Shown: positions 2,145 through 22,967 of the stretch, in pieces
Numbering within the stretch: the first letter of the stretch is position 1
Layout: each line of letters starts with the position of its first letter
Origin: a virus
Reading direction: 5' to 3' (one strand)
IMG/VR virus record: IMGVR_UViG_3300035698_005599
Span: 1-23,953 of that record
DNA length: 23,953 nt
The notes under the pieces: generated by a model
Seen by the model: only the letters and a program-made list of their open reading frames with translations
What the model was told of the DNA's origin: nothing
Database searches by the model: none
Made by a program: the position numbers and the translations under genes

Positions 2145-3610
2145 CAGTAATTCCACAGTACGCGAGCAAGTTCGGCATCTTCGGGGCGCAGTCCGAACGC
2201 GGCCAAATCTTCTTTCTTGACGCCAGCTTTAAACGCCGCGTCTAAAAGGCTTCCCCTGATCACTTTCTGCTGCTGCGCTGATTTTTCATCGTAGTCTTGC
2301 GCGGAAACGTCTCCACCGGCAGTAATCAGCGCCCGTTGCTCCCGGCCTTTGGCAGCGATGCTGTCCATGCCCTGACCGTACAAAAACGCGTACATGGTCT
2401 CAGGCTCCGAGGTGATCTGCGCTACGCTGGCTTTGATTTCGCTAAAGTCTCTGTCGGTCACTGGCGCAAACAGGCGCATAGTGTCGGCGTAGAAACTCAA
2501 GGCAACCGCCCGAGAGCGCTGATCCCGTGTTTGGTCTTTCCAGGCTCCCTCGCCCAAGCCCAACTCCCGGCCCAGTGCTGCCGGAACGTTTAAACGGCCC
2601 ATAGACTCGGGCAGCTCGGGATCGGCGGCCAGCCGCTTGATGTTCGCCGTCAGTGATGCCGTTTCGTTCTCCAGTGCAGCCCGATCCTGCCACAGCTTTT
2701 GCCGCGCTTTAAGCTGCGCTGCCGTACTGGCTACGTTTGCCACGCCTTGAGGGTCATTGCCCAGCTCGGTCAGCTTGTAGACTTCTGCCGGGGTCATGAG
2801 GTTGCTTTTGTCAGCCGCCGGACTGCCTTTATAAACGTCCGTGCCTACCTGAAAATACGTCCCCGGTACCCCGGTATCAGAGTTGATCGCGGGGAACTGG
2901 GTCACGTTACCGGCCTCTTGCGCGGCGTCGGTCGCGCGCTGCTCGTCACCACGCATTCCCGTAAGCGCCTGCTCATCCCTTGTTCTTTGAGCGGCGAGCT
3001 CCTGGTCGGCAGCAATCCGCGCCGTAAACTGGCTCTGCTCCCGCGCCTGGTTGGCGCTGAACTGACCCGCCTGCTGCTCCTGGGTGGCGTTGAACTGGCC
3101 TACGCCCTGCTGGGCATTGCCACGGGCGACGCGAGCCTGTGCTTCGGCTTTAGCCTGCCGTAACGGACCCATGGTTTCGTCCTGGCGGCCCTGTAGCCTT
3201 CCTTCAACGAACCCTCCCAGCGCCCGCTCAGCGGCGGCTGCTGCGTTCTTGAACTGGTTCTCCACGTAGATACCCGATGGCCCCACGCGTTGACCCTCGG
3301 GCATTTCGCGGCCCCTCATGGCCTGCGCAAAGGCGATCTGCCGGTCAAACGCAGCCTCCTGGGGTGCAAGGTCTTGGTTCGCGGCCATAAAATCGGCTTG
3401 CGACGCTAGCTGGTTCACGCTCTGGGGCATTCCTTGCCCGGCTTGCTGGGGCATTCCTTGCCCGGCTTGCTGGGGCATTCCTTGGGGCGCGCCTTGAGGG
3501 GCACCTTGAGGAGCGCCTTGTGTCGCCTGCAAATACCGGCGAAGCTTTTCTTCTTCGGTCATCTGCGCGCCGCCCAGCATCGACTGAGCGTATGGGTTAA
3601 TGTACTGCAC
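2144..3610 (-). CDS. 488-aa virion-associated protein, probable internal/ejection protein
   Basis: The likely start is GTG at 3610, because AAGGAG lies 8 nt upstream. The N-terminus has TEEEKLRRYL, resembling the TEEDKLR start of the next gene, then a Gln-Gly-Pro-rich repeat (residues about 32-60). The middle (about 120-230) is Gln/Ala-rich and probably helical or coiled. The C-terminal half is more ordinary. No enzyme motif is visible. It lies between the 363-aa protein and the giant protein in the late operon, so a role as an internal virion or DNA-ejection protein is plausible from position and composition only. One GTTTAAAC site at 2588 is read as R-L-N with a TTA leucine codon. Confidence 0.82.
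   Translation of the reverse strand: MQYINPYAQSMLGGAQMTEEEKLRRYLQATQGAPQGAPQGAPQGMPQQAGQGMPQQAGQGMPQSVNQLASQADFMAANQDLAPQEAAFDRQIAFAQAMRGREMPEGQRVGPSGIYVENQFKNAAAAAERALGGFVEGRLQGRQDETMGPLRQAKAEAQARVARGNAQQGVGQFNATQEQQAGQFSANQAREQSQFTARIAADQELAAQRTRDEQALTGMRGDEQRATDAAQEAGNVTQFPAINSDTGVPGTYFQVGTDVYKGSPAADKSNLMTPAEVYKLTELGNDPQGVANVASTAAQLKARQKLWQDRAALENETASLTANIKRLAADPELPESMGRLNVPAALGRELGLGEGAWKDQTRDQRSRAVALSFYADTMRLFAPVTDRDFSEIKASVAQITSEPETMYAFLYGQGMDSIAAKGREQRALITAGGDVSAQDYDEKSAQQQKVIRGSLLDAAFKAGVKKEDLAAFGLRPEDAELARVLWNY
3423..3520 (-). repeat. Coding tandem repeats (24-bp then 12-bp units)
   Basis: A 24-bp unit begins at 3423, 3447 and 3471 (the last copy is partial). It is followed by about three degenerate 12-bp units up to 3520. 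On the minus strand these encode QGAP repeats and then GMPQQAGQ-type repeats. Unit sizes are multiples of three, so length changes would keep the frame. Confidence 0.85.
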
Positions 3611-3622
3611 TGTGTAAACTCC

Positions 3623-4714
3623 TTAACCGAACAGGTTGCTAAAGCCGCCCGCTGCGCCAGCGGCCCCAAGAAAGCTACCGCCCAAGCCCAGAAGCGCCCC
3701 GGTTGGGTTGTTCGCAGCATTGATTGACGACTGATCTGCTGCTGCCTGGTACAGCGGTGCTGACTGCGCGGCGGTAGCCTGGCTGAAGTTCGGCATCTGC
3801 GGCGTCCCAACCTGCTGGCCAGACAGCAATGCGTTTATTTCGTTTAGCGAGAACCCGCGACGCTGCATTTCTTCGGTCTGCTGCTGCTGGCGAAGCTGTG
3901 TTGCGTACTGGCTGCCCTGCATGGCCTGCCCGAAGTTCTGCGCGTTAGCGCCTAGAGCCTGGTTAAACATCTGCCCAGCCGCCTGGTTACCAAACTGCGC
4001 CATGCGATCCTGCTCGCCGGTAGCCATGCTTCGCAGCCCAACGTCCTGGCGGAAAAGCTGCGCCTGCTCGCCTCGCCCGGCCATCACGGCATCTGACTGA
4101 AGCTGACCCATGGCGTCGTTTTGCGCAAGATCAATGCCCTGCATCTGCGACTGGTACGCCTCATCCAAAGGACTCAGGCCCTGGTTTCGCAGCTTGATCT
4201 CCATCTGCTGCCGCTGACTGCCGAATCGGTCGTTTAAACGCCCCTGGCCCTTGTCGAACACGGCGTTCTCGGCGCGCTGCCGTAGATCACGGGGATCACC
4301 TACTTGCGGAGCACTGGAGTAATCAAGGTTCTGGCGCAGTTGCTCCGGCAGCGTAAGCTGGGACACCGGCACCTCGCCCATAGGGTTCAGGTTGTCGAAG
4401 TTCACCGACTCGCCAAACTCGCCGCCGAGCCTGCCCGTAAGCATACCGGCAATGTCGCTTCGCCCGTCCTGTACCGCAAGCTGCTTGTTCAGGATCGACT
4501 GAAGCTGAGGCGTCAGACTGGTTGTTTGCTGCCAGCCGGTGACAGGTTGGCCAGTTGCGGGGTCGATCTGCTGCTGCGAGTCCCAGGTGGTCGATCCAAA
4601 CGGCGTATATTGGTCTGGCCGATTGGCAAACGTCTGGTCCGTTACAACCTGCCGGTTAGCGTCACCCTGAGCAATGGCTGCACCCTGCATATTCGGCTGC
4701 GATTTACCTCCCAT
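3623..4714 (-). CDS. 363-aa Gln/Asn/Gly-rich virion-associated protein with hydrophobic Gly/Ala C-terminus
   Basis: ATG at 4714 is preceded by purine-rich AAGGTAAGGGT. The protein starts MGGKSQPN, has a Gln-rich body with likely helices (about 140-290), and ends in a Gly/Ala/Leu/Phe stretch (last 25 residues, including GALLGLGGSFLGAAGAAGG). A weakly hydrophobic C-terminal segment of this kind suits a protein that touches or enters a membrane, as podoviral ejection proteins do, but this is inference. No catalytic motif is seen. It sits among other low-complexity late genes downstream of the tail hub. A GTTTAAAC site at 4232 is read R-L-N-D. The function is not recognised with certainty. Confidence 0.8.
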   Translation of the reverse strand: MGGKSQPNMQGAAIAQGDANRQVVTDQTFANRPDQYTPFGSTTWDSQQQIDPATGQPVTGWQQTTSLTPQLQSILNKQLAVQDGRSDIAGMLTGRLGGEFGESVNFDNLNPMGEVPVSQLTLPEQLRQNLDYSSAPQVGDPRDLRQRAENAVFDKGQGRLNDRFGSQRQQMEIKLRNQGLSPLDEAYQSQMQGIDLAQNDAMGQLQSDAVMAGRGEQAQLFRQDVGLRSMATGEQDRMAQFGNQAAGQMFNQALGANAQNFGQAMQGSQYATQLRQQQQTEEMQRRGFSLNEINALLSGQQVGTPQMPNFSQATAAQSAPLYQAAADQSSINAANNPTGALLGLGGSFLGAAGAAGGFSNLFG

Positions 4715-4781
4715 ACCCTTACCTTTGCCCTTTTTCTGCGTAATTTACGGTGGAAATCCACCATTTAGTGTCAATTTGCGA

Positions 4782-5546
4782 TTAAAACGGTAGCCCGCCG
4801 CCCATAAAGCTGCCGCCTTGCTGGCCGAACCCGCCGCCGTTAAAGCCACCACGCGCCGGGGCCGTGTTTTGCTGGAAATTCAATCCGGCCAGTGGCGACG
4901 CGTACCCTGAATCCATCAGCTCCACGTCCGGCAACCCACCCTCCAGCCATGACCAGTCAAGCTGTTGCGGGTTCGATGCCTGACCGGCGCGAGCGGCTGA
5001 CGCACTGGTTGAGCGCGCTTGCAGGTTGTCGCGCTGGTTCATAAGCTGTGTAAACTGATCGTTGTAGAACGGCTGGTTCACGCTCTGCTGCTGCCACATG
5101 TCACCGGCATTGTCAGCCATCGTAAATTCTGCCTCCGCGCCTGGTGATGACTGGAACTGGCTGAAATCCCATGTCGCATCTGGTGCGCCGCCGCCATAGG
5201 TCGGGCGCTGCCGCGAGTTCCAGTTCTGGAGCGTCGAATCGCCGTAATCCGGCTGGTTGGTCAGCACAGCGCCTTCATTGCCTACCGGCGCGTTGATAGT
5301 CCCTAGCTGGGCATTGCTGAACTGCGTCCCGTTGGCGGCCATACCGTTACCGGCGGGCGGCGTGCTGGGCATTGACGGCTGCAAGTTGCTGAAAAAAGAG
5401 CCTAGAGCGTTCTCGTCGAACCCGAAACCGCCGCCGTCTACGCCGTCACCCTGGATTGACTGGCCGATTTGCTGGGCATTACGCCCAAACTGATCGGTCG
5501 TACCGTTCCAGCCGATCTGATTAAGGTAATCCTGTACTGAGAACAT
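4782..5546 (-). CDS. 254-aa Gly/Asn/Gln-rich late protein of unknown function
   Basis: The start ATG at 5546 overlaps the stop of the GNAT-like gene as TAATG, so the two are probably co-translated. The protein is low-complexity: Gly-, Asn-, Gln- and Ser-rich, few charges, with GGGFGFDENALGSFF near residues 38-52 and a Gly/Phe-rich C-terminus ending GGGLPF. I recognise no domain. Composition and place in the late operon suggest a virion component, perhaps a flexible internal or ejection protein. A 67-bp gap with no gene separates it from the 363-aa gene. Confidence 0.78.
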   Translation of the reverse strand: MFSVQDYLNQIGWNGTTDQFGRNAQQIGQSIQGDGVDGGGFGFDENALGSFFSNLQPSMPSTPPAGNGMAANGTQFSNAQLGTINAPVGNEGAVLTNQPDYGDSTLQNWNSRQRPTYGGGAPDATWDFSQFQSSPGAEAEFTMADNAGDMWQQQSVNQPFYNDQFTQLMNQRDNLQARSTSASAARAGQASNPQQLDWSWLEGGLPDVELMDSGYASPLAGLNFQQNTAPARGGFNGGGFGQQGGSFMGGGLPF

Positions 5547-6013
5547 TATGCGGCCTCTGATTCTGTGTTAGTTCTGGCGCACCGCGCCTGTTTAAACGGG
5601 TTCTGGCTGATCCAGCGACAGTCAGCTTTGTCCATTCGCATGACCACATACCCTACGCCGGTAGCCACCGCGTCATCCACTCGGGCAACCTCTCGCCATC
5701 CCATGTGTGCGTTGAGTTTGAGCGCCTTGTCGTTGTCGGTCGGCACAAGCCCAAAAATCCGCTCACGGTGAGACTCAACAAAAAGGTAACGGGCGATCTC
5801 GCTCAGGAATCCATGGCGCAGGACAATAGGCTTGTCGATAGCCATATGGACAGAGCAGGCATCGACAGTCCAACTGTCAAACGCAGCAGCGGCAAGTATC
5901 CGGCCCTGTCCGTCCAGCGCGAGTATTCCCTGGGTGTCCTCACAGTAGATTGCGTGGGTTCGGGCATTGATCCACCTCCATTCTTCACACGTCTTGAGCG
6001 GTTTAAACACCAT
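5546..6013 (-). CDS. GNAT-like (N-acetyltransferase fold) protein in the virion operon
   Basis: At 155 aa, its pattern fits a small GNAT domain: GILALDGQGRILAAAAFDSW (about 30-49) as the first beta strands, a central helix with ARYLFVESHRERIFGLVP, then NDKALKLNAHMGWREVARV (about 94-112), which matches the acyl-CoA-binding helix and G(W/F)-x-E strand. The family normally transfers acetyl groups to amines. Some podoviral internal virion proteins also have a GNAT-like fold, so enzyme activity is not certain. The start overlaps the gp10-like hub gene as TGATG, and the stop overlaps the next ATG. Two GTTTAAAC sites lie in it, one in codons 3-5 (V-F-K) and one near the 3' end (P-F-K-Q). Confidence 0.72.
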   Translation of the reverse strand: MVFKPLKTCEEWRWINARTHAIYCEDTQGILALDGQGRILAAAAFDSWTVDACSVHMAIDKPIVLRHGFLSEIARYLFVESHRERIFGLVPTDNDKALKLNAHMGWREVARVDDAVATGVGYVVMRMDKADCRWISQNPFKQARCARTNTESEAA

Positions 6014-7629
6014 CAGAGGAATCCTCCGGTGGTGAACGTGATGTCCCAGCCGATAATCGTCAGTCTTGATGCCGATTCGCCTCTCATGGCTATCGCAAAC
6101 ACCCTACCGATACCCGCCGCGCCTTCAATAGATGAGCGCCCGTCATTCTCTCCGCCCCAGACAGCCAAGTCCCAGATGCCTACGTCCCACAACGAGACGG
6201 GGATCGGGAACGCGCCGGTAGGCGGCGGAGCCTCGGCAGTGATGTTGTAGTCGTACACGGCCTTGAGGTTGTAGCTGATCTCGGTGTCAGACAGCGCAAC
6301 CACGCGCATCAGGCCGATCCGCTTGTAAAAGCCATGCTCGCCGTAGGGCTGAAATGAGGTCAGGATCGAGAACCCGATAGGCTCCCCGCCCAGGCCGTCG
6401 ATGTCGCTGCCGTCCAGGACGCCGGTGTACAGCCACACCTCGCCAGCTTGTGCGCCCATGAAAAAATCAGCTTTCCACGTCTCGGCGCACAGCATGGGAA
6501 CGTCGCGCCAGTATCCCCAGGCCTTTGTTAGCAGGTTTTGGCTGTACTGGATCGCCTTGTTGGCAAAGGTAAACGGTTCAATAATTTGCAGGAATCCGTC
6601 AGGAGGAAAGCTGCACATCTGCCAGCCAGGCTCGTCCTGTTTACCCACCACGGCAGCGCGCAGAACCCGGTTGATCTTGCTGGAGGGTGACTGACCTGTA
6701 TCTGAAGCCGACACGCCGGAAACAAGGTCGCGCAATGATGTAACGCCAAAGGTCGATAATATGTACAGCTCGGCGGCATACGCCTCCACCACGCGCCGGG
6801 AGTTGGGCATTTCGCCGACAAAAAAGGACCCTTTAAGCTCCCAGGTGTTCGCGTCGCTTGGGTCGGCACCGCGATAGACCAGCACATCGCCACCGCGAGA
6901 TACCCCGACAAAGTAGTCATCAAGGCCGTTCCCGCCGTCCAGGGTCCAGGTGTACATTCCCAGCAGCTTGCCGCCGTAGGTAAACTTCGATCCCCAGACA
7001 AACTTCACGAACGCACCGGCCACCGCAGCAACAGGGCTATAAAACGAATCGGTGGAGTCCTGCATCCCGAGCCAGAGGCGTTGCTTGTGGAGCACGACAA
7101 AGCCCACGTCAGCAACAGTGACACCCGTGATGGTCGGCACTTCCCATCCACCGCCCACCGTATATTGGTGGAGGCCATTTTTGGGGCAGGCGACAAAAAG
7201 GAACGTCACAGCCGCGTCGTTGGTGAACTCGGTCCACGTCACAATGCCCGCATCGCCGGTATTGATACCAAACGCCACCGCGACGGTCGGGTTCGTCGTG
7301 CCGTCCGTTGTCACATCGTAAATGCCGTCTGCGGTCACCGCAAAAAGTTTGTCATTGGCAGGGTCCGTACCCTGAAACGGCACGATTGAGCGCACATTGG
7401 TGTAGGGCGCTGCGCCGACGCCGCTGGCCCAGGTTCGATAGCCTTTGCGCAGGCGCAGGCCGTATTCGCTGGGCATCAGGTTAAATGTGTAGTAACAATC
7501 CTGCACTGGCAGCGCGATCAAAGGATCAAGCGCGTTTACACCGCCTACTGACGCAGGGATGGTCGCCGGTTCTGCGGCAGCAGTCACGGGTTTAAGCATC
7601 CCGCCGCCTGTCTGTGGCCTATAAAACAT
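6013..7629 (-). CDS. P22 gp10-like tail hub / packaged-DNA stabilisation protein
   Basis: At 538 aa, it is mostly beta-rich with repeated short strands, for example DKLFAVTADGIYDVTTDG (about 90-108), QRLWLGMQDSTDSFYSP and GDVLVYRGADPSDANTWELKG. This is the propeller-like pattern seen in P22 gp10-type tail accessory proteins, which plug the portal after packaging and hold the tail. Length is near that of the family (P22 gp10 is about 470 aa). It directly follows the gp4-like adaptor gene (3-nt gap), the same order as in P22, and precedes the GNAT-like gene with a TGATG overlap. Family assignment rests on pattern and order, not on a search. Confidence 0.78.
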   Translation of the reverse strand: MFYRPQTGGGMLKPVTAAAEPATIPASVGGVNALDPLIALPVQDCYYTFNLMPSEYGLRLRKGYRTWASGVGAAPYTNVRSIVPFQGTDPANDKLFAVTADGIYDVTTDGTTNPTVAVAFGINTGDAGIVTWTEFTNDAAVTFLFVACPKNGLHQYTVGGGWEVPTITGVTVADVGFVVLHKQRLWLGMQDSTDSFYSPVAAVAGAFVKFVWGSKFTYGGKLLGMYTWTLDGGNGLDDYFVGVSRGGDVLVYRGADPSDANTWELKGSFFVGEMPNSRRVVEAYAAELYILSTFGVTSLRDLVSGVSASDTGQSPSSKINRVLRAAVVGKQDEPGWQMCSFPPDGFLQIIEPFTFANKAIQYSQNLLTKAWGYWRDVPMLCAETWKADFFMGAQAGEVWLYTGVLDGSDIDGLGGEPIGFSILTSFQPYGEHGFYKRIGLMRVVALSDTEISYNLKAVYDYNITAEAPPPTGAFPIPVSLWDVGIWDLAVWGGENDGRSSIEGAAGIGRVFAIAMRGESASRLTIIGWDITFTTGGFL

Positions 7630-7631: not shown

Positions 7632-8360
7632 TTAAAACCCGTACCCGGTGTCAGGAACGTTGTTTATCATGTTGAGGAGCGGGTACCGGCCCACGCCGCC
7701 GATGTGCAGAATCTGGCCGCCTTTCTGGTTGCCCAGGCGGTTCTGGAGAAGGTTCTCAAACTCGGCGTGAGCGGCACTAGAGGGAAGGTTCTTTGCATCA
7801 AGAAACTTCACCTTGAGAAACTTTTGCATCAGCGTTGAATCAAGAAGAACCACGTCCCCGGTAACGGTGCAGAAGTCGATACCCTCCTCCAGCGCGTTGG
7901 TCGCCCAGTTGGTCGATATGTACTGGAACGTTACCGTCGCGTTAGTCGGTGGAGGGTTGGGGAAAATCTCGATCTGGCCCTTGTTGATGCGATAGCTGAC
8001 ATAGATCGTGTCAGTAATAAGCTGACGGCCAATCATGTAGGACCATTGTTGTGGGCTCAACGGACCGATTACCGGCACCTCGTTGGAGTAGTCCCACCCG
8101 GTTTGCTGGATAAACCGATCATAGTCGTTGGGAAGCTGGGCGTACCCGGCGACGATGTCAGCCGTGGTGTTGAACGAAAAGGTGCTGGTCAGCTCTTGCC
8201 ACTCAAACATGGCGGCCAGTTCCAGGCCCGCAATGTTGAGCAGCGCAGTAAGCTGTGTAAACCCGGCGTCAGTGCTGGAAAAGGGGTCTGCGACAGGCAG
8301 CAAGCCGACTTCCACGGCTGTTCGATTGATTATCGTACCGGCGTTTTGCTGGCGAGCCAT
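7632..8360 (-). CDS. Head-to-tail adaptor (P22 gp4-like tail accessory factor)
   Basis: At 242 aa, the helical N-terminal part (INRTAVEVGLLPVADPFSSTDAGFTQLTALLNIAGLELAAMFEWQEL) is followed by a beta-rich part (TSTFSFNTTADIVAGYAQLPNDYDRFI, with IEIFPNPPPTNATVTFQYIS later). The LPxDYDRF and I-x-I-x-P-x-P pattern is typical of phage adaptor and connector proteins that bind below the portal ring. The start at 8360 follows a GGGGG-type ribosome site. It lies immediately upstream of the gp10-like gene, as expected for this module. Confidence 0.75.
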   Translation of the reverse strand: MARQQNAGTIINRTAVEVGLLPVADPFSSTDAGFTQLTALLNIAGLELAAMFEWQELTSTFSFNTTADIVAGYAQLPNDYDRFIQQTGWDYSNEVPVIGPLSPQQWSYMIGRQLITDTIYVSYRINKGQIEIFPNPPPTNATVTFQYISTNWATNALEEGIDFCTVTGDVVLLDSTLMQKFLKVKFLDAKNLPSSAAHAEFENLLQNRLGNQKGGQILHIGGVGRYPLLNMINNVPDTGYGF

Positions 8361-8432: not shown

Positions 8433-9098
8433 TTACTGGCTCTCGCCGGGACGCTGATCTGACTCAAACGCGAGGTCTTTCGCCATGTCTTTCGCCATGT
8501 CTTTCGGCTCACGCTTGGCGTACTTGCGTGTTTCACGTGGAACATTGTTCTCGGTCAGCGTTTTGACGGTGGCGGCAAGTTCCCGAACCTGCTCGGCCAG
8601 CATGGCGTTCGCAGCTCTCAAGTCCTCGTGCTCGTTAATCACCGCCTGCTTGTCAGACGCCGCAAGAAAAGCCTTGGCGCGCTCTCGGAGCATGTTTATA
8701 CCCATGAAGCCCTGGGCGTTTACATCGCTCATGTCGCAAAGCTGTTCGACGGTGTGAATGTGGCAGAATTTGAGTTCTTCGACCTGAGTACGGCTGACGC
8801 CCGGCCACTCGGACAGTAACGTGCCTTCAATGCCGACTTCCTCGTCCCGATTCTCAAGCCATCGCTTGTACTGCGTAGGGAATCGACGCTTGTGGATAAT
8901 AGTGACAGGGCTGACAGGGATGTTGTCCTTGTTGCCCGGCGTCATAATCTTGATGTACTCGACGCTCTCGAAAATATCCCGCCCGGCGGCATCGCTCTTG
9001 GGTCCGTTTTTCTTGGTGTGCATGAAAAACTGCACCAGGGCGCGTTCTTCAACGCGGCCCATGGCTTGATTCGTCAGCGACAGATCGGCTTCTTGCAT
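8433..9098 (-). CDS. 221-aa structural-module protein with helical C-terminus, function unknown
   Basis: The start is set at ATG 9098, since AGGAG lies 8 nt upstream; a GTG six bases earlier would be too close. The N-terminal half (about 20-100) includes VEERALVQFFMHTKKNGPKSDAAGRDIFESVEYIKI. Residues about 100-150 resemble a small helix-hairpin-helix (WPGVSRTQVEELKFCHIHTVEQLCDMS). A coiled-coil-like stretch (about 155-190) and a basic tail with a DMAKDMAKD repeat follow. It lies between capsid-related genes and the adaptor. GTTTAAAC sits immediately upstream of its ribosome site (9112-9119). A head or connector-assembly role is inferred from position only. Confidence 0.8.
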   Translation of the reverse strand: MQEADLSLTNQAMGRVEERALVQFFMHTKKNGPKSDAAGRDIFESVEYIKIMTPGNKDNIPVSPVTIIHKRRFPTQYKRWLENRDEEVGIEGTLLSEWPGVSRTQVEELKFCHIHTVEQLCDMSDVNAQGFMGINMLRERAKAFLAASDKQAVINEHEDLRAANAMLAEQVRELAATVKTLTENNVPRETRKYAKREPKDMAKDMAKDLAFESDQRPGESQ

Positions 9099-9166
9099 GT
9101 GCACTTCTCCTGTTTAAACAGCTTGGCCTTATTTGGCTACAGCATTTTGATACAGCGGCGCCGTTT

Positions 9167-10956: not shown

Positions 10957-10979
10957 ATACCAGGATAGCGTTTAAACTC

Positions 10980-12047: not shown

Positions 12048-12386
12048 TTATTGGCGCTCCAGTCTCGTCCAGTGCTCATGTATTTCCTGTTTGCGCCGAA
12101 GTTTCTGCGCTTTAGTGTGCTCACCGCCAAAAAAGCTCTCACGCTCCCGTTTTTTTCGCTCGAAAAACTCAGGGCTGAACTCGGCGCTTGGTACGACGTT
12201 GTGCTTGCGGCAATGGTCCTGATATTGACGGTTATTTTTGATCTCGGTGCCGTCAATAGGCGATTTAAACGCATCAATATTGCCCCGGACAAAAAAGAAG
12301 CCCTGTCCCTGCTTGTTGTCTCGTTTAAACGCCGCTTCATCAGCAGGGTACATTTTTCCTGTGTCCCTGTCTTGCAACCATTTCAT
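12048..12386 (-). CDS. 112-aa basic phage protein between portal and scaffold, unknown function
   Basis: The protein is short, charged and basic. Residues about 33-66 (GNIDAFKSPIDGTEIKNNRQYQDHCRKHNVV) match a pattern common in small phage proteins near portal genes: a Y/F-K-S-P-x-x-G-x-x-I-x-x-R-x-x-H-x-x-H core. The C-terminus is a helix rich in Lys, Arg and Glu. ATG lies 1 nt past the portal stop, and its stop abuts the scaffold ATG. A GTTTAAAC site at 12323 is read F-K-R, and ATTTAAAC at about 12263 is a near copy. No function is claimed. Confidence 0.78.
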   Translation of the reverse strand: MKWLQDRDTGKMYPADEAAFKRDNKQGQGFFFVRGNIDAFKSPIDGTEIKNNRQYQDHCRKHNVVPSAEFSPEFFERKKRERESFFGGEHTKAQKLRRKQEIHEHWTRLERQ

Positions 12387-14553: not shown

Positions 14554-14593
14554 TGCTAACTCCCGAGCCTCGCCCGATGGTGTTTAAACGCTG

Positions 14594-16515: not shown

Positions 16516-16563
16516 CGCGTAAACGTCCTAGGGCCTTGAGACCGTGTAAACACTGGGCTTGAG
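16516..16563. repeat. Two imperfect direct repeats upstream of terS
   Basis: GTAAAC followed by GGGC(C)TTGAG occurs twice: GTAAAC at 16519 and 16546, and the second half at 16532-16540 and 16555-16563. The second copy contains GTGTAAAC, one base off the GTTTAAAC octamer. This is a possible binding site pair. Confidence 0.5.
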
Positions 16564-16931: not shown

Positions 16932-17021
16932 CGGGCTTGGCTACGCATTTACGCCATGCGCCCGCAGTTTAGCGGCACGAGACCTGGATCACACTTTAGC
17001 CAGCTTTGTTGTGTAAACACC

Positions 17022-17051
17022 TTGCACATAAAAGCTGTGTATGATTATAAT
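17022..17051 (+). promoter_or_regulatory. Strong sigma70-type promoter of the rightward block
   Basis: TTGCAC (17022-17027), an 18-bp spacer and a perfect TATAAT (17046-17051) lie 46 bp before the SprT-like gene. GTGTAAAC overlaps the upstream flank (17011-17018). A short CCGG/CCGG dyad (17061-17074) and GGTTAAAC (17073-17080), another near copy of the octamer, lie downstream, where a repressor could act. AGGGGA precedes the ATG by about 7 nt. Confidence 0.8.
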
Positions 17052-17096
17052 GATCACAAGCCGGGATAGTCCGGTTAAACGATCAGGGGAAAAGAT

Positions 17097-17696
17097 ATGT
17101 TTGCACAACGGGAAACCTACTTAACCGAAGCTGCTGGCTTGCTGCTAGACGAGAAGATCATGCCAGCCGTAGTCGCCAGTGGCTATGCGTATGACCGTCC
17201 GGCTTTCCGTATTTCTGTCGGCTGGCCAAAAGGCTCGCGAAGCAGTAAGGCAGTTGCGCAATGCTTTGTGCGCAGAGTGTCAGGCGACAGCGTAAGCGAA
17301 ATTTTTGTCTCACCGGAGATTGACTCACCCATCAAAGTCCTGGATTGCGTAATCCACGAACTCATACATGCAGTCGATGACTGCGCTAGTGGGCACCGTA
17401 ACTTTTTTGCGCGGATTGCGCGATCAATCGGGCTTGAGGGGCCCTTCACTGCTACTTACGCGGGCCCAGAGCTCGCTGAATATCTAGCGCAAGTAGCCGA
17501 GCTACTAGGCGATTTTCCGCATCATAAAATGGTGCTGAGCGAGAGCGGAAAGGCACCACAGACTACGCGCATGTTGAAGGTGGCCTGCACTAATTGCGGT
17601 TTTCATTTTCGCACTAGCGCACAGCAAGTAGCGCGACTGGATCACGCAAGTGTGTGCCCAGCTTGCGATATACCGGCGCTTTCAATACCAGCCTAA
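17097..17696 (+). CDS. SprT-like zinc metalloprotease-type protein
   Basis: At 199 aa, it contains the metal-site motif HELIH (residues 87-91) with a third histidine at 100 in SGHRNFF, the SprT-type arrangement, and a C-terminal zinc ribbon with cysteines at 164, 167, 187 and 190. Human SPRTN of this family cleaves proteins crosslinked to DNA; bacterial and phage members are poorly understood. It is the first gene after the strong rightward promoter, with a good ribosome site. Acting on DNA-bound proteins is plausible but inferred. The active-site residues look intact. Its neighbour downstream is the AAA+ ATPase. Confidence 0.85.
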   Translation: MFAQRETYLTEAAGLLLDEKIMPAVVASGYAYDRPAFRISVGWPKGSRSSKAVAQCFVRRVSGDSVSEIFVSPEIDSPIKVLDCVIHELIHAVDDCASGHRNFFARIARSIGLEGPFTATYAGPELAEYLAQVAELLGDFPHHKMVLSESGKAPQTTRMLKVACTNCGFHFRTSAQQVARLDHASVCPACDIPALSIPA

Positions 17697-17748
17697 ATAA
17701 CCTGGCGCCCGCGCCGTTTAAACAATCCCACAAAATGAGACTGACGCT

Positions 17749-19107
17749 ATGACAACTGAGACAACTGAGACAACTGAATTGACCACCCTAGCCCGAGGCG
17801 TTTTGCGCCGTCGCCTTTTGAGCGCGGGTATTCCATCCGCGCATATGGGCGATGACGAAATACGCGCCGCCGTGTCTGCGCTTGATGCGCTACCGGACTC
17901 GCCCCTCAATCTGGGCAAAGGCAAGCCCAGCAAGACGCCAGCCGCGCCGACATTGCCTAAATGTTTTTGGGATGAACTTTCCGCGCATCGCAAAACGATG
18001 CGCTTGCCTGACATGGAAAGAGCCGAAAAGGCCGTCAAATTTGTTGTATTTATGGGAACAGCGCATTTTACAGTGGCAACTGTTCAAGCTGGAAAAGATT
18101 GGATTGCACACTATGGTGATGAGGCGCCAGAGTACTCGCCCGAGCCCGCGCCTGAGCCTGAGCCCGCGCCTGAGCCTGCGCCCGAGTCTGAGCCTGCGCC
18201 CGAGCCTGGCACTAATGCAGCCGCCGCCGCCGCTATCATTGCGGCGCTTGAAGGAATCCGAGCGCAGCCTGGCGCGCTAGATGAAAAACGAGTGATCCAG
18301 CTTATAAAGGATCACGTTGCGGCGCCGCGAACCGTAACGGTGCGCGTACAGCAAAGCGAAAAAACTACCCTGATTGAGGGCGCGCACGCCCAAACTCCCG
18401 AACTTCTGGCGTGGGTCGCTGCCGGTAAATCTATTGCCCTGTTTGGCCCTCCAGGCTCCGGCAAGACGACTGCGGCACAGCAAGTCGCAAAGGCACTAGA
18501 CCTGCCGTACCGATTTACCTCAACTTGCCTACAGGAGCATAAAGTGCTGGGCTTTATTGATGCGACTGGGACGTATCACAGAACACCTTTTCGCGACGCC
18601 TTCGAGCACGGCGGCATTCACGTTTGTGAAGAGTTCGACTCATGGGGGCCGAAGGTGGGGGCTTGCCTTAATAACGCGTTGGCGGGCGCATGGTGCGACT
18701 TCCCCGACGGCATGATTGAAAAGCACGCCAGCTTTATCTGTATAGCTAATATGAATACGGCTGGGCGCGGAGCCGCGTCCGGCTTAGTGGCGCGTAATGC
18801 GCTCGACGGCGCGACGCTCGATCGTTTTGCTTTCCTAGAATGGGGCTACGATGAAAACCTAGAGCGCGAGTGTGCGCTTGCTGTAAATCCTGCGGCGGAC
18901 GATTGGGTGACAATCGTGCAACAAATCCGCGCAATTGTAGCCGAGACAAAAGCACCTATCTTTGTGACGCCCAGAGCGTCAAGTGAGGGCGCGGGCGCCA
19001 TGGCGCACGGTTTAAACATAGCGCAGTGCAAAAATGCACTGATCTATAAAGGCATTTCCGCTGACCAAGTCGCGGTAATTGAGACCATGCTGGAGAGCGC
19101 AGCATGA
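17749..19107 (+). CDS. CobS/MoxR-type AAA+ ATPase (AAA_5-like)
   Basis: At 452 aa, the N-terminal third has a small charged domain, then a Pro-Glu-Ala linker (about 128-153). The AAA+ core has Walker A GPPGSGKT from residue 233, a Walker B position reading VCEEFD (about 292-297), where Glu replaces the usual first Asp, then IANMNTAGRGA (sensor-1 region) and ARNALDGATLDRF, very like CobS-family ATPases of phages. MoxR/CobS ATPases remodel protein complexes with a VWA-domain partner, and the next gene may be that partner. Its stop overlaps the next start (ATGA). The start lacks a clear Shine-Dalgarno; the first codons are 9-bp repeats encoding TET. GTTTAAAC at 17716 lies upstream and another at 19010 inside (G-L-N). 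Confidence 0.9.
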   Translation: MTTETTETTELTTLARGVLRRRLLSAGIPSAHMGDDEIRAAVSALDALPDSPLNLGKGKPSKTPAAPTLPKCFWDELSAHRKTMRLPDMERAEKAVKFVVFMGTAHFTVATVQAGKDWIAHYGDEAPEYSPEPAPEPEPAPEPAPESEPAPEPGTNAAAAAAIIAALEGIRAQPGALDEKRVIQLIKDHVAAPRTVTVRVQQSEKTTLIEGAHAQTPELLAWVAAGKSIALFGPPGSGKTTAAQQVAKALDLPYRFTSTCLQEHKVLGFIDATGTYHRTPFRDAFEHGGIHVCEEFDSWGPKVGACLNNALAGAWCDFPDGMIEKHASFICIANMNTAGRGAASGLVARNALDGATLDRFAFLEWGYDENLERECALAVNPAADDWVTIVQQIRAIVAETKAPIFVTPRASSEGAGAMAHGLNIAQCKNALIYKGISADQVAVIETMLESAA

Positions 19108-19937
19108 TTACGCATGGGCGCAGATTCGGAGGACTATCCGACCTTATGGGCTTGCTGGAATCGCCCATACCGCCGGACAGCGGTAGATCAAGCCAGTATC
19201 CCAGCAACCCTGACTGGGATTTGGGTTTGGATTGGGACGGCGCGGTGAATATCGCTCGGGCTGGCGGCTACTGGCCAGCGGGGCGAGAGAGAATGTCGAA
19301 AGTAGTCGCTGCTGCCGGGCGCGCAGCGCATATGCTACCCCATGGCGATGATCAAGGTGTTGTAGGGCATACGCTCGTTGTTCCTGATTACGTGTCAGGC
19401 ATTCCCGATTGCTGGATTCAAGCGGAGGAAAATGATCCAACGGCGATCCTGACGATTGGCGTATCTGTAATCGCAAGCGCAGGGTGCCACGCTGAGCCTA
19501 TGTTTAATCGCGGCGCGGCAGTTTTGAGTCTAGTGGATTCACTCGAAACGCAAGGCATACGCTGCCGGTTGTCGGCGGTGTACTGCGCACGATGGACGGA
19601 TAATGGCGCGGAGCACCTGACGATTGAAGATATAACAGTGAAAGACATTGGCGATCACTGGAATATAGATAAAGCGGCTTTCATGCTCGCGCATCCGGGC
19701 TTTATGCGCAGGATCCTTTTAGGCATGGTGGAGCGCGGCGCGACTGCCGAGGCGCGCAAAATTACGAATAACGCGTATGGCATTCCGTGCGGTGGGACGC
19801 ATTCAAAACAGATAAAGGATGCGATGGGATACGATATTTTTATCCCCGAGTTAAAATCAAGTGATGGACGGTACGAAACAATAGATGGTGCGCTTCAATG
19901 CGTGATGGCTCATTACCGCAGCGAGGGCGCGCAATGA
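19104..19937 (+). CDS. Probable VWA-like partner of the AAA+ ATPase
   Basis: At 277 aa, the start overlaps the ATPase stop (ATGA). The N-terminal part (RRFGGLSDLMGLL, then LDWDGAVNIARAGGYWPAGRERM) resembles a family of phage proteins that sit beside CobS-like ATPases. The rest alternates strands and helices like a von Willebrand A fold: ILTIGVSVIASAG (about 113-125), a helix with FNRGAAVLSLVDSLETQG, strand CRLSAVYCARW, strand HLTIEDITVKD, and a helix with AFMLAHPGFMRRILLGMVERG. The metal-binding DxSxS is not intact (GVSVIAS), so ion binding may be lost. Family call is by pattern and neighbour; CDS is firm. Confidence 0.8.
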   Translation: MITHGRRFGGLSDLMGLLESPIPPDSGRSSQYPSNPDWDLGLDWDGAVNIARAGGYWPAGRERMSKVVAAAGRAAHMLPHGDDQGVVGHTLVVPDYVSGIPDCWIQAEENDPTAILTIGVSVIASAGCHAEPMFNRGAAVLSLVDSLETQGIRCRLSAVYCARWTDNGAEHLTIEDITVKDIGDHWNIDKAAFMLAHPGFMRRILLGMVERGATAEARKITNNAYGIPCGGTHSKQIKDAMGYDIFIPELKSSDGRYETIDGALQCVMAHYRSEGAQ

Positions 19938-20056
19938 TCGCGCTCGCGTACCATCTCGCACGATGCACTGGCGCATTGCCCGCGATCCAGCTTGCCAGTA
20001 AGGCGGCAGGCTGGGCCTTGCTAGTCTGGGCAATAGCGGCGCTTGCTTATGGGTGA
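19934..20056 (+). CDS. 40-aa small membrane protein (putative)
   Basis: Its ATG overlaps the stop of the VWA-like gene (ATGA), and its end overlaps the next start. The peptide has one hydrophobic segment near the C-terminus (AAGWALLVWAIAALAYG), enough for one membrane span, and a short N-terminal part with an Arg. Overlaps at both ends favour a real gene, but it is short and unrecognised. Confidence 0.5.
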   Translation: MIALAYHLARCTGALPAIQLASKAAGWALLVWAIAALAYG

Positions 20057-20261: not shown

Positions 20262-20860
20262 AAGTTTTTCTCCTGAGTAGCGGCGCGTGAGGCCGCTTTT
20301 TTTTTGCGCAGCTTGGCCTGATGGCGCGCCTTATGCGAAAAAATTCGCTTTAGTCTTAGCAGATAGTCGATATCAAGCTTGCGCGTGGCTGGCGCGCATT
20401 CAATCGCCTCCACGGTGTCAAGGCCAAACCGTGCGATCAGGCCCAAGCGGAACTCGAGAATGTTTCCAGACTTTGAGTTATTGCATTGGGCGCACTGCCG
20501 GACAACGTTTAAACAGTGAAAGGATAGCGCGGGCGCCGCTGCGCGTGTGCGATAGTGCCCGGCGTGCGCCTGGCCAGTGCGTATACCGCACGATATGCAG
20601 CCACGATCAATATCGCGTGCGCGTATGTACTTGTTAAATGCCGCTTGAGCATCCCGTCTATGCTGGGTAGGTGTCTTGATGGACTCCCGCAAGCGCCTAG
20701 TCTCTGCCGCGTACTGCCGGGCGCGGGAGGCTTGAGCCTTTGCGCGATCCGCCTTGACCCTACCCAGAGCGCAGGCCGGGCCGCACACCACCTGTAGGGG
20801 CCGGTCCGGGGTAAACCGCACCTTGCACTGGCGGCACACCTTGCTGCGTATTTTTGTCAT
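20258..20860 (-). CDS. ninG: NinG/Rap-like recombination endonuclease
   Basis: At 200 aa, NinG has an N-terminal zinc-finger pair (C9, C12, C26, C30), a basic helix (about 35-80), then an HNH-like zinc nuclease region: CISCG (88-92), AHAGHY (98-103), HCLNVVRQCAQCNNSKSGN (115-133). This matches lambda NinG (Rap), a structure-specific nuclease acting on branched DNA in recombination; length matches (about 200 aa). The start ATG overlaps the stop of the upstream 37-codon ORF (ATGA) and lies in the last copy of a tandem repeat. The Lys-rich C-terminus coincides with a terminator on the other strand. GTTTAAAC at 20507 is read C-L-N inside the nuclease region. Confidence 0.9.
   Translation of the reverse strand: MTKIRSKVCRQCKVRFTPDRPLQVVCGPACALGRVKADRAKAQASRARQYAAETRRLRESIKTPTQHRRDAQAAFNKYIRARDIDRGCISCGIRTGQAHAGHYRTRAAAPALSFHCLNVVRQCAQCNNSKSGNILEFRLGLIARFGLDTVEAIECAPATRKLDIDYLLRLKRIFSHKARHQAKLRKKKAASRAATQEKNF
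20279..20305 (+). terminator. Intrinsic terminator of the rightward block, inside the 3' end of ninG
   Basis: AGCGGC (20279-20284), a 7-nt loop, GCCGCT (20292-20297) and a run of nine T form a strong rightward rho-independent terminator. The same bases encode the Lys/Ala/Arg-rich tail of NinG on the minus strand. The opposite strand lacks a T run after the stem, so it should act one way only. Confidence 0.88.
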
Positions 20861-20982
20861 GCAATTTTCCCAAAATACTCCGGGATATTTTTGTCACGCA
20901 AATTTCCCAAAATCCCCCTGGATATTTTTGTCATGCAATTTTCCCAAAACGCGCAGGCTATTTTTGTCATGCAAATTTCCCC
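20849..20982 (-). repeat. Four 36-37 bp tandem repeats at the ninB/ninG junction
   Basis: On the minus strand a unit with GGGAAATTTGC or GGGAAAATTGC followed by ATGACAAAAATA (GTGACAAAAATA in one copy) occurs four times, with start triplets at 20970, 20934, 20897 and 20860 (spacing 36, 37, 37). Each unit carries a potential stop/start overlap. The first is the ninB stop and the last the ninG start. Confidence 0.92.
20857..20970 (-). CDS. 37-aa ORF formed by the ninB-ninG tandem repeat (possible coupling peptide)
   Basis: ATG at 20970 overlaps the ninB stop (ATGA), and its TGA overlaps the ninG ATG (ATGA). The peptide begins MTKI, repeats MTKI after 12 residues and ends GKIA, echoing both the NinG start (MTKI) and the NinB end (GKFA). 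It is made wholly of the repeat units. It may carry ribosomes from ninB to ninG by stop-start coupling, or simply be a by-product of the duplication. No protein function is seen. Confidence 0.5.
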   Translation of the reverse strand: MTKIACAFWENCMTKISRGILGNLRDKNIPEYFGKIA

Positions 20983-21407
20983 AGATGGCTCAGGTCAACG
21001 CCTTTCTGGCTGTAGTAGGCGATGGCGGCGTCAATCACGCGCCCAAGCTGCTCGGTATTCATCGTACTTGTCACCGGCAGCAGGTCCATGGCTTCCAGCT
21101 TTTGCTCGTAACTTAAAACGTCCTTTATCACAGAATCATATCGCGCCCGGAAAGATTCGTCTGATGCTCGCAGTTCCGGGACGCCAAAAAACAGCTTCAC
21201 AAAGCGTTTAACCTCCCCCGCAGACTCCTGCCCTTGCTGCCTGGCCACGTCCCTGATGATCTGGTGCAACAGGGCGTTCTGCCCCTCGGTTCTGTGCGGC
21301 TTGATGAACTGAAGGTGAACCGCTCGACCGTCGCGCATTTCTGATCTTGCGTGGTCGCAGAAACTTGTGAGCTGGTGCTCATATTTAATAGTCCATTTTT
21401 CTGCCAT
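20967..21407 (-). CDS. ninB: NinB-like recombination protein
   Basis: At 146 aa from ATG 21407 (MAEKWTIKYEH), it matches the usual NinB/Orf length (about 145); longer upstream reading is unlikely because AGAGGAA lies about 9 nt before this ATG. Typical features are the short beta start, then KPHRTEGQNALLHQIIRDVARQQGQESAGEVKRFVKLFFG (about 46-85), and the C-terminal VTSTMNTEQLGRVIDAAIAYYSQKGVDLS. Lambda Orf (NinB) binds SSB-coated single-stranded DNA and helps RecA or Red recombination. It lies upstream of ninG through the repeat. Divergent control DNA lies upstream. Confidence 0.88.
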   Translation of the reverse strand: MAEKWTIKYEHQLTSFCDHARSEMRDGRAVHLQFIKPHRTEGQNALLHQIIRDVARQQGQESAGEVKRFVKLFFGVPELRASDESFRARYDSVIKDVLSYEQKLEAMDLLPVTSTMNTEQLGRVIDAAIAYYSQKGVDLSHLGKFA

Positions 21408-21480
21408 GCCCTTGTGTTCCTCTTTTATGTGTAATATACTTGTACAGTGTCGATGTGACACGAATCGAGAGACTGACATT
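21408..21480. promoter_or_regulatory. Divergent control region with operator-like dyad
   Basis: The 73-bp gap separates ninB (leftward) from the small-gene run (rightward). It has a perfect dyad GTGTC-N5-GACAC (21447-21461) and the palindrome TGTACA (21441-21446). A weak leftward promoter can be read as GTGTCA, 17 bp, TATATT (21461-21433 on the minus strand), which the dyad would overlap. TAATAT (21432) might serve rightward, with no good -35. A repressor site is plausible. Confidence 0.45.
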
Positions 21481-21669
21481 ATGACAACGAATACAGGAAA
21501 AGGAATGGATGCGCGACAGCGGGAGCTATTGCTTATCATGCTGCAACAGATACGCGATGAGTACATGTACGGAGACAGCGCAGCGGCCCATGAAAAGATA
21601 TGCCAGTTAATCGCCGCCGTAGGGCGGGACATTAAGATACACAGCCTGGGAGTGGATGAGAATGTCTAA
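21481..21669 (+). CDS. 62-aa helical protein of unknown function
   Basis: ATG at 21481 is chosen because it lies just after the control region; reading further upstream would run through the ninB promoter area. The product starts MTTNTGKGMDARQRELLLIMLQQIRDEYMYGD and looks like two helices; no family is recognised. The bases around the start (21469-21488) match those of the AAA+ gene at 18 of 20 positions. Its end overlaps the next gene by 14 nt. Confidence 0.65.
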   Translation: MTTNTGKGMDARQRELLLIMLQQIRDEYMYGDSAAAHEKICQLIAAVGRDIKIHSLGVDENV

Positions 21670-21871
21670 TATTTACGACGTGACGTTTAAACACATACAC
21701 CGCTCTCAAAACGAAATCCAGGCGGCGCTTTCAATAACAAGCGAAGTACGCTTTTCAGTCAAAGCCGATTCGTTTTCTGAGGCGGTGGCTGCCACAAACC
21801 ATCTCATACAGGAGCGAGGCGAGAACAGCGTTAGCGCCACACGCCGACCACAACAGGATGACCAGCTATGA
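21656..21871 (+). CDS. 71-aa protein of unknown function
   Basis: It starts at ATG 21656, or ATG 21662 (MSNIYDVTFKH), inside the end of the previous gene. The product has a beta-alpha look (IYDVTFKHIH, VRFSVKADSFSEAVAATNHLIQERG) and a polar tail, like small phage proteins with a single RNA/DNA-binding-size domain, but I recognise none. Its stop overlaps the next ATG (ATGA). GTTTAAAC at 21685 is read F-K-H. Confidence 0.65.
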   Translation: MRMSNIYDVTFKHIHRSQNEIQAALSITSEVRFSVKADSFSEAVAATNHLIQERGENSVSATRRPQQDDQL

Positions 21872-22113
21872 AAGTAACAACCCCCACAGGCGACATAGAC
21901 CTGCCGCAAGGCATATGCGGCATAAGTTTAAACGAGGAGGACATTATCATGATCCTGGGCGCACTGGATGTTTTTGAATTTTACGCACAGAAACGCGGTC
22001 ATAGTGGAGAGTTGATCAGTCGCATCAATAAGCTCTATTGGAAACTAGTCGAGGAAACAGACTGCCCCTTTGACCCTAAAACAGTGGAGGCGCACGGAAT
22101 TGTCGCCAAATAG
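21868..22113 (+). CDS. 81-aa protein of unknown function
   Basis: Its ATG overlaps the previous stop (ATGA). The product begins with short strands (MKVTTPTGDIDLPQGICGISL) followed by an acidic helix (NEEDIIMILGALDVFEFYAQKRG) and a second helix (ELISRINKLYWKLVEETD). No motif is known. GTTTAAAC at 21926 is read S-L-N. Part of a five-gene overlapping run. Confidence 0.65.
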   Translation: MKVTTPTGDIDLPQGICGISLNEEDIIMILGALDVFEFYAQKRGHSGELISRINKLYWKLVEETDCPFDPKTVEAHGIVAK

Positions 22114-22330
22114 ACCAGAGGATTTGATCCTCATATCACGTCCCCCTAAGTGGCAGAAGGAGCCTCTGGAGTCTCAATTCAGGGCGCTCCAGAGCGTATA
22201 CCGACGAGAACAGCGCCGGTATATGGCTCGGCATAGGGTAATTGGCATTCTAAGGGAAGCAGGGGCCACTGACCCTGTTCGGATCATCAACAGGTTAGTG
22301 AAGCAAGGTGTACTGGGAGTTTACCGATGA
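22100..22330 (+). CDS. 76-aa basic protein, possible winged-helix DNA binder
   Basis: TTG at 22100 is chosen because GGAGG lies 9 nt upstream, although the frame is open to a TTG at 22070. The product is Arg-rich (FRALQSVYRREQRRYMARHRVIGILREAGATDPVRIINRLVKQGVLGVYR). The last 35 residues read like a small helix-turn-helix or winged helix. It overlaps the previous gene by 14 nt and the next ATG by 4 nt. Function is not known. Confidence 0.62.
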   Translation: MSPNRPEDLILISRPPKWQKEPLESQFRALQSVYRREQRRYMARHRVIGILREAGATDPVRIINRLVKQGVLGVYR

Positions 22331-22500
22331 ATATTACAAAGCCAGAAAAACTAGACCAGCAGCTTAGGCTGGTGATGACAAGATCAGACAGAGGACGTTT
22401 AGACGTTCTCTCCACGCACTACGGTGTGAGTCGCAATGAGCTGCTTCGCCAGCTTGTTTCGTTTGCGTTCGACAAGCTGCCAGAAGAAAAGGGGCGCTGA
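22327..22500 (+). CDS. 57-aa ribbon-helix-helix-like small protein
   Basis: Its ATG overlaps the previous stop (ATGA). The product (LDQQLRLVMTRSDRGRLDVLSTHYGVSRNELLRQLVSFAFDKL, about 9-51) resembles a CopG/Arc-type fold: a short strand, then two helices with the SRNELLRQLVSFAFDKL pattern. Such proteins are usually dimeric DNA-binding repressors; here it could control the nearby operator-like dyad, which is inference. It is the last gene of the run. Confidence 0.65.
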   Translation: MNITKPEKLDQQLRLVMTRSDRGRLDVLSTHYGVSRNELLRQLVSFAFDKLPEEKGR

Positions 22501-22507
22501 ACCGGCG

Positions 22508-22532
22508 TAGCCTGGGGGTGATCCCTGGGCTA
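22508..22532. terminator. Hairpin between convergent genes
   Basis: A stem of ten pairs (TAGCC with GGCTA outer, GGG with CCC inner, two G-T pairs in between) and a GTGAT loop lies right after the 57-aa gene. It includes the TAG stop of the convergent 145-aa gene. No T run follows on either side, so intrinsic termination is uncertain. Confidence 0.4.
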
Positions 22533-22967
22533 TGCCTCGACCATGGCGATTATCCGCTTTATAGCCTTCCAATTTTCGATTCCGTACACACGCCCGTCGA
22601 TGTACAGGCTGCATATTTTTATGCCCAGGCATTTCCGTAGGGATTCCACGGACACAAACTCGTAGCGGCTGAACCCTGTGTCTATCGTCAGCCGATGTTT
22701 AAACACTCGGTCATCAGGCGTTCCTGATTTGATCACAAAGTCTTTGAAGGCCTGGCTTGCGCTTGCGTAATCTCTATAGACCCTCAAGTGAATGCCGTCA
22801 TCATCGCAACCAGCAAAACTTCCCTGCTTGTAGTCGCTATCGGTGATCGTTTCGCTGTGCCTCATGATCTCTGTCTCCCGCTCAAGGCCCCGGACCCTTT
22901 CCTCAAGGCGACGGATACGATCCGCCGTATCCATGGCCGCCTTCATTGTGAGTCCGTTGCCTCTCAT
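22530..22967 (-). CDS. 145-aa protein with N-terminal coiled coil, unknown function
   Basis: ATG at 22967 has AGGAG about 7 nt upstream, overlapping the stop of the preceding gene. Residues about 12-40 (MDTADRIRRLEERVRGLERETEIMRH) form a heptad-like coiled coil. The rest (HLRVYRDYASASQAFKDFVIKSG, FSRYEFVSVESLRKCLGIKICSLYIDGRVYGIENWKAIKRIIAMV) is a mixed alpha/beta domain I do not recognise. GTTTAAAC at 22697 is read V-F-K-H. Confidence 0.7.
   Translation of the reverse strand: MRGNGLTMKAAMDTADRIRRLEERVRGLERETEIMRHSETITDSDYKQGSFAGCDDDGIHLRVYRDYASASQAFKDFVIKSGTPDDRVFKHRLTIDTGFSRYEFVSVESLRKCLGIKICSLYIDGRVYGIENWKAIKRIIAMVEA

Follow-up and report, generated by a model that had tools for sequence, protein, structure and literature searches.

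The octamer GTTTAAAC, a perfect palindrome, recurred throughout the viral DNA analysed here (hereafter the window: the whole IMG/VR record IMGVR_UViG_3300035698_005599, 23,953 bases, a fragment of a phage genome). Its enrichment tracked one early gene, encoding a SprT-like protein (17097-17696 in the window), and not structural-gene kinship. The SprT-like protein probably reads the octamer and its one-base variant, together GTKTAMAC, as an autoregulated, stoperator-like regulator of transcription, whose simplest mode would be repression. This reading was supported by the enrichment of the site, its linkage to the SprT gene, its placement at promoters, its conservation and its correlation with a loop of the protein.

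Enrichment of the octamer in the window

Sixteen exact copies of GTTTAAAC were counted between 2588 and 22704, with gaps of 170 to 3134 bp, against an expectation of 0.20 by dinucleotide shuffles and 0.23 to 0.30 by order-1 and order-2 Markov models. The recount agreed with the original prediction, which had reported 16 copies over this span where well under one was expected, and the excess was about 53- to 80-fold. When all 8-mers of the window were compared with the Markov model, GTTTAAAC ranked first, the next palindromes reaching 4 copies each. The further remark that copies lay on both strands is void of meaning for a perfect palindrome. Site density in the window was 0.67 per kb.

A one-base variant, GTGTAAAC on one strand and GTTTACAC on the other, which the original prediction had overlooked, added six copies, for a total of 22 sites; the variant and GTTTAAAC are the same site, GTKTAMAC. 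The flanks of the GTTTAAAC copies had only a weak bias, YGTTTAAACR, and since no shared flank extended beyond this pyrimidine/purine pair the copies were not remnants of a longer repeat.

Linkage of the site to the SprT-like gene

Related phages, in which the original prediction had proposed to look for the site, gave a divided answer. No excess was found in portal relatives (52% identity) or in the nearest capsid relatives (80-82% identity of the major capsid protein, MCP), whereas more distant capsid relatives (67-73% MCP identity) had it: L079 with 11 copies in 15 kb, G014 with 19 in 34 kb and G002 with 13 in 34 kb. Structural genes were rejected as carriers of the trait, and kinship of virion genes as its explanation, because the portal relatives L001-L056 and the closest MCP relatives were without the site. 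The split among capsid relatives therefore turned attention to the early SprT-like gene.

A scan with two nearby sites as sole criterion, and no protein criterion, returned at least 31 strongly enriched contigs, of which, among the matches listed, one had as many as 19 sites in 7.5 kb. Nearly all the enriched contigs listed had no BLAST similarity to the structural proteins of the window group, and a SprT-like homologue was encoded in 16 of the 31 strongly enriched contigs among the listed matches. The converse scan used protein alone: an alignment of 15 homologues led to 80 viral loci (63 of them ≥8 kb), all with the conserved loop described below, which was included in the peptide pattern. 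Counts pooled GTTTAAAC, GTGTAAAC and GTGTACAC. Enrichment (P < 1e-4) was found in 55 of the 63 SprT loci of at least 8 kb (667 sites observed, 42 expected) and in none of 52 controls lacking SprT (28 observed, 25 expected). The SprT loci fell into 18 clusters of similar DNA, 13 of them positive, and the positive loci ranged from 34 to 73% GC.

In a comparison of gene content between 29 positive genomes and 7 negative ones, SprT was the sole family present throughout the positives and in 0/7 negatives. It was found in 24 of the 29 positives by comparison of open reading frames (ORF) and in the remaining five by tblastn, ORF calling having failed in GC-rich DNA or similarity being low.

Four other candidates were rejected. 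The AAA ATPase gene (17749-19107) occurred in 11/29 positive genomes and the DUF7192 gene (19104-19937) in 5/29; in Bas97, Mica, KeAlii and other phages neither was found. The ribbon-helix-helix-like protein encoded at 22327-22500 in the window and a 51-residue MazE-like protein of G002, G006 and G014 each occurred in only some of the positive phages. The former has 57 residues and resembles ribbon-helix-helix regulators (PF01402, below cutoff).

Separately, contig L287 had 13 GTTTAAAC sites in 14 kb, many of them spaced about 1.2 kb apart, with no SprT match within the fetched stretch.

Cultured phages and the QxTRMxK loop

Among cultured phages, Streptomyces phage Stuff had 42 copies of GTGTAAAC in 54 kb (0.05 expected), Arthrobacter phage KeAlii 23 sites (0.12 expected), Microbacterium phage Zeta1847 22 (0.08 expected) and Dinoroseobacter phage R5C 17 copies of GTTTAAAC (0.04 expected). 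Burkholderia phage Mica followed with 7 sites and Pseudomonas phage Persinger with 4 (0.09 expected in each). The excess was weaker in Escherichia coli phage Bas97 (6; 0.7 expected) and Acinetobacter phage Alexa (8; 1.0 expected). Counts of GTKTAMAC were 27 in the temperate Arthrobacter phage Powerpuff, 34 in Honk, 21 in R26L, 17 in Floof and 16 in GardenState, and the reversed-pattern control gave 0 in each.

A QxTRMxK loop preceding the zinc ribbon of the SprT-like protein was present in all 14 site-bearing phages among 21 cultured SprT phages. The loop (Q[GST]TR[ML]xK) was absent in the other seven, Dismas, Armstrong, Eden, Bachaco, Epa5, CN1 and FP1, which had 0-1 site. With a stricter pattern, which misses the QTTRLVK of Alexa, the table became 13/0/1/7 (p = 7e-5). 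The HExxH motif was intact in all 21, loop-bearing or not. Conversely, the SprT homologue of L196 (9501-10115) had a broken HExxH with an intact loop and zinc ribbon, and its contig kept 22 sites. Protease activity is thus not the common denominator, because HExxH without the loop went with 0-1 site and a broken HExxH with 22. The natural negatives, by their sequences, point to the loop as the putative reading part.

In some of these loop-less phages other octamers were over-represented. Octamers with CCTGGGC/GCCCAGG were in excess in Pseudomonas phage Epa5 (L413-L415), where CCCTGGGC had 53 copies against 5.3 expected, and in Bordetella phage CN1 (L420-L422); the SprT proteins of both are also without the ribbon cysteines. 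This excess may reflect codon usage or another site system. In Microbacterium phage Armstrong (L406-L407), CTATTGTA/ACAATAGA occurred six times (0.01 expected); this is another element, dispersed or repeated.

Site dialects and clustered sites

By unbiased 8-mer count, the dialect of the window was GTTTAAAC plus GTGTAAAC; that of G014 was GTTTAAAC plus GTATAAAC and GTATATAC; and G041 had 34 copies of GTGTAAAC, 7 of GTGTACAC and zero of GTTTAAAC. In the window's phage group, loops of the type QGTRMLK or QTTRMLK went with GTTTAAAC and GTGTAAAC, QKNRQLL (G041, G026) with GTGTAAAC/GTGTACAC, and GRNNNKI (G014) with GTATAAAC; this match is a correlation over few lineages.

In some relatives, sites were clustered in a large divergent noncoding region upstream of the packaging operon. 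In L104 (48-475), six GTTTAAAC copies lay within 470 bp; in the same type of region of G003 (L143, 423-533), four copies stood in tandem at a 15-bp period; and clustering in the large divergent intergenic region was also seen in G014. Because of the single-base dialects and the clustered operators, the site looks, from its sequence, more like a target for protein binding than one for restriction or methylation.

In the central intergenic region of G002, G003, G006, G014 and G026, inverted repeats (AAAGGTAACT, AGGTTACAA, ATGTTACAA and similar) bordered an AT-rich stretch, an arrangement that looks like a replication origin. Other repeated sequences were found in relatives of the window phage: in L083 (whole locus), a relative without the motif, ATGCGATG/GCATCGCA had 16 copies against 0.5-0.8 expected. 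In L007, AGTTTCAT and CCAGTTTC had 23 copies each in 10.9 kb, probably a repeat array.

Placement and conservation of sites

Of 78 loci, 43 had an exact site no more than 150 bp before the SprT start (8.5 expected), and the asymmetric variant, where it stood upstream of SprT, was always oriented as GTTTACAC. In KeAlii and Powerpuff several sites, that of SprT included, were directly 3' of a TAGACT-like -10 element with a TTGCG -35, and in Stuff the SprT site was between -35 and -10; these promoter elements were read by eye. In the window, a variant site (GTGTAAAC, 17011-17018, plus strand) adjoined the -35 of a putative SprT operon promoter (TTGCAC-18-TATAAT, 17022-17051, plus strand, also read by eye), and a degenerate site, GGTTAAAC (17073-17080, plus strand), lay downstream of that promoter and before the SprT start.

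Intergenic positions accounted for 10 of the 23 sites of KeAlii (9.4% expected, p = 2e-5), all in one orientation and mostly 20-46 bp before a start codon, for 9 of 39 in Stuff (p = 0.002), 3 of 6 in Bas97 and 3 of 4 in Persinger; in the window the enrichment was weak (4 of 16 GTTTAAAC sites, p = 0.03). Orientation, which is undefined for the perfect palindrome, was biased in KeAlii (19:4) and Powerpuff (20:7). Between these two phages, 13 of 16 aligned sites were identical (background 20%, p = 3e-7), and between Zeta1847 and Honk 12 of 15 were, compared with 19% for comparable octamers. The placement of the sites suggests control of transcription.

The SprT-like protein

All 15 aligned members fell in phrog_6361, a family of unknown function whose proteins are usually annotated as "SprT-like protease" or "transcription elongation protein". 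The Pfam family SprT-like (PF10263) matched 7 of the 15 at E < 0.01, weakly (best 2e-5), and did not match the window protein. The HExxH motif was found in 112 of 113 homologues checked, the window protein included. The AlphaFold 2 (AF2) model (predicted local distance difference test, pLDDT, 92) combined a metallopeptidase-like domain with a zinc ribbon at the C terminus. A Foldseek search against the PDB gave no match at E ≤ 0.001, the zinc ribbon not being searched separately.

Proposed mechanism and its standing

A dimer of the SprT-like protein would read the palindrome through its QxTRMxK loop and C-terminal zinc ribbon, and would act on its own promoter from a site that overlaps or adjoins it. 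Many further sites that the protein may occupy lie at other promoters, within genes and in the short gaps that precede genes. At promoters, initiation would be blocked; elsewhere, transcription would be silenced or blocked, as proposed for mycobacteriophage stoperators. Direct binding, dimerisation, repression and any role of the protease-like domain are predictions from sequence and model. In phages without a recognised integrase, as in the near-complete relatives of the window, where none was noticed, the protein may time or silence expression during infection.

In temperate phages of clusters AZ and EH the same protein would be a candidate for the missing immunity repressor. Powerpuff (cluster AZ) forms stable, superinfection-immune lysogens, and no repressor has been identified in AZ/EH phages (PMC8758107). 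Phages of both clusters had the sites as well as the SprT gene, and the hypothesis is advanced that SprT is their immunity repressor, which may answer this published question.

Several observations weigh against the SprT-like protein as reader and regulator. About half of the SprT genes, that of R5C included, had no exact site at the SprT promoter; the majority of sites were intragenic; and Stuff, unlike stoperator phages, had no orientation bias (21:21). Five of the 18 DNA clusters (L337, L347, L361, L369 and L384) had the loop and stayed below significance. The loop itself was tested by the 21 cultured phages only, since the pattern of the protein scan already contained it, and these phages are not all independent; G014 (GRNNNKI) and L297 had diverged loops yet many sites. 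No helix-turn-helix was found in the AF2 model or in family searches of the protein, and no other known sequence-specific DNA-binding fold was recognised in it. The top VIA-align result among the Foldseek candidates, the SPRTN protease domain (6mdw; Z 7.4, 3.7 A, 101 residues), was middling.

Taken at its widest, the proposal is tentative: a stoperator-like system, at work in phages from several bacterial phyla, may depend on a hitherto unrecognised class of sequence-specific DNA-binding regulator that recognises GTKTAMAC and joins a SprT-type metallopeptidase domain to a zinc ribbon. In the Arthrobacter and Microbacterium phages of clusters AZ and EH, this regulator may be the immunity repressor that has been missing, with the peptidase domain possibly serving as its switch. 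A literature search for GTTTAAAC, for GTGTAAAC and for SprT with repressor or palindrome found no description of such a system in the collection of papers covered. The analysis offers a candidate function for the widespread family phrog_6361 and a site readable straight from the genome. If binding holds true, site-specific phage regulators would gain a new type, the zinc-ribbon SprT protein, and the dialects with their matching loop changes would let a recognition code be worked out.

Alternative explanations

The SprT-like protein might act at the sites without being a repressor, marking or organising phage DNA in replication, packaging, condensation or SPRTN-like clearing of proteins, with the promoter sites only balancing its own level. 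Its relation in fold to SPRTN, a protease of DNA-protein crosslinks, the genome-wide and intragenic spread of sites (as with the 42 of Stuff in 54 kb) and the tandem or clustered sites that G003, G014 and L104 have in the large divergent intergenic region would fit such a role. Sites favoured intergenic gaps and promoters, however, and for a protease the evidence from loop-less proteins and from L196 is adverse; a role of this kind is rather unlikely.

That a host protein reads the sites, the SprT gene being merely one target in each phage, is improbable. The SprT gene often has a site at its own promoter, as a mere target might. Yet the same octamer was present in phages of Streptomyces, Arthrobacter, Microbacterium, Dinoroseobacter, Burkholderia, Pseudomonas and E. 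coli, and within one phage group the dialects changed in step with the SprT loop. A host factor is further disfavoured because the sites followed the loop among phages of a single host, Microbacterium foliorum: the loop-bearing Floof and Honk had 17 and 34 sites, and the loop-less Dismas, Armstrong, Eden and Bachaco none.

A methylation mark, or a host-imposed iterated palindrome like highly iterated palindrome 1 (HIP1) of cyanobacteria (PMC4390886), is very improbable, even though the octamer is likewise a dispersed palindrome in genic and intergenic DNA and HIP1 sites are associated with methyltransferases (PMC4390886). The original prediction had named a methyltransferase target among several possible factors; no methyltransferase family was common to the positive phages when phage genes were compared, and related phages differed in single-base dialects. 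A host-wide mark fared no better. None of 229 Gammaproteobacteria genomes was rich in the site or reached a tenth of the window density, the values being at most about 0.04 sites per kb. In metagenome-assembled genomes with phage relatives, whole-genome sites did not exceed the reversed control, whereas phage contigs were enriched. The survey is a sample and not proof, since a search of bacterial genomes for the window's MCP, aimed at its host, gave only distant or doubtfully binned contigs; a host-wide repeat is an unlikely source of the excess. What stood of the listed factors was a phage-encoded site-specific one, probably a transcription regulator, by its linkage to one phage gene, its promoter sites and their conserved positions; packaging or partition, also on that list, are conceivable roles.

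Chance from composition, codon usage or shared ancestry can practically be dismissed: most sites are genic and some relatives have flanking DNA in common, but P reached 1e-106 (order-2 Markov) in genomes of 34-73% GC, the pattern read backwards gave 0-1 and site octamers were conserved at about four times the rate of comparable ones.

Sites and genes along the window

The left 16 kb of the window is taken up by the operon for packaging and structural proteins, on the minus strand, with capsid and portal of the Mx8/BUCT555 type. Copies of GTTTAAAC lay here within genes at 2588-2595 (gene 2144-3610), 4232-4239 (gene 3623-4714), 5590-5597 and, over the first codons, 6001-6008 (both gene 5546-6013), 12323-12330 (gene 12048-12386), and 13684-13691 and 13854-13861 (portal gene). 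Intergenic copies were at 9112-9119, 8 bp upstream of gene 8433-9104, at 10970-10977, and at 14582-14589, 29 bp upstream of the portal gene. Variant sites, written on the plus strand, were GTGTAAAC at 3612-3619 (between genes), 5048-5055 and 8255-8262, GTTTACAC at 7534-7541, and GTGTAAAC at 16544-16551 in the divergent intergenic region.

The right part is a divergent operon of SprT-like, AAA ATPase and DUF7192 genes, all on the plus strand, followed by NinG/NinB-type recombination genes. The SprT-like protein, the proposed site reader (phrog_6361), has HExxH, a QTTRMLK loop and the zinc ribbon. A GTTTAAAC site followed its gene at 17716-17723 (intergenic, 26 bp upstream of the AAA ATPase gene), and others were within the AAA gene (19010-19017), the NinG gene (20507-20514), the small genes 21656-21871 (21685-21692) and 21868-22113 (21926-21933), and gene 22530-22967 (22697-22704).

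The AAA (CobS/MoxR-like) ATPase gene belonged to the SprT operon in many relatives and the DUF7192 gene in some. SprT followed by both was seen in many phages, such as the window phage, G002, G006, G014 and G041, and was not found in the temperate ones; the three genes are a possible functional module.

Comparison with known systems

The site resembles HIP1 and alternate HIPs of cyanobacteria as a dispersed octameric palindrome far over expectation (PMC4390886). HIPs are chromosome-wide and occur with methyltransferases, whereas GTKTAMAC was enriched in phages, not in the sampled bacterial genomes, and occurred with a SprT-like gene.

With SPRTN and SprT-like metallopeptidases (PF10263; PDB 6MDW) the protein shares HExxH and, by prediction, a similar peptidase-like domain (VIA Z of 7.4 across 101 residues). 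Unlike SPRTN, proteins of the phage family have at their end a conserved QxTRMxK loop with a zinc ribbon, correlated with a sequence-specific genomic site; to our knowledge no comparable site linked to a loop or ribbon has been described for SPRTN.

Start-associated sequences of cluster K mycobacteriophages are also dispersed repeats, mostly in one orientation and near gene starts, but they are 13 bp long, non-palindromic and 3-7 bp from start codons (PMC3203893). For the present site the distance in KeAlii was mostly 20-46 bp; the site overlapped promoters and was also intragenic.

The closest parallel is with the stoperators of cluster A mycobacteriophages (L5 gp71, Bxb1 gp69), of which L5 has 24 and Bxb1 34 (PMC3029335). 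Shared features were tens of short dispersed sites, intergenic enrichment in several of the phages, promoter operators and one cognate phage gene (PMC3029335), as well as dialects between related phages and a predominant orientation in KeAlii and Powerpuff. Copy number was similar, with 22 sites in the window and in Zeta1847 and 23 to 42 in cultured phages such as KeAlii, Powerpuff and Stuff. A stoperator is 13 bp long and asymmetric (PMC3029335), whereas the present site has 8 bp, is palindromic or nearly so, occurs in phages of several bacterial groups and is mostly intragenic, with a function that is predicted. The helix-turn-helix that defines the stoperator repressor was not found in the candidate reader, a SprT-like zinc protein. 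With a reader of another kind, and with orientation biased in some phages only, the likeness to stoperators would lie in the mode of working.

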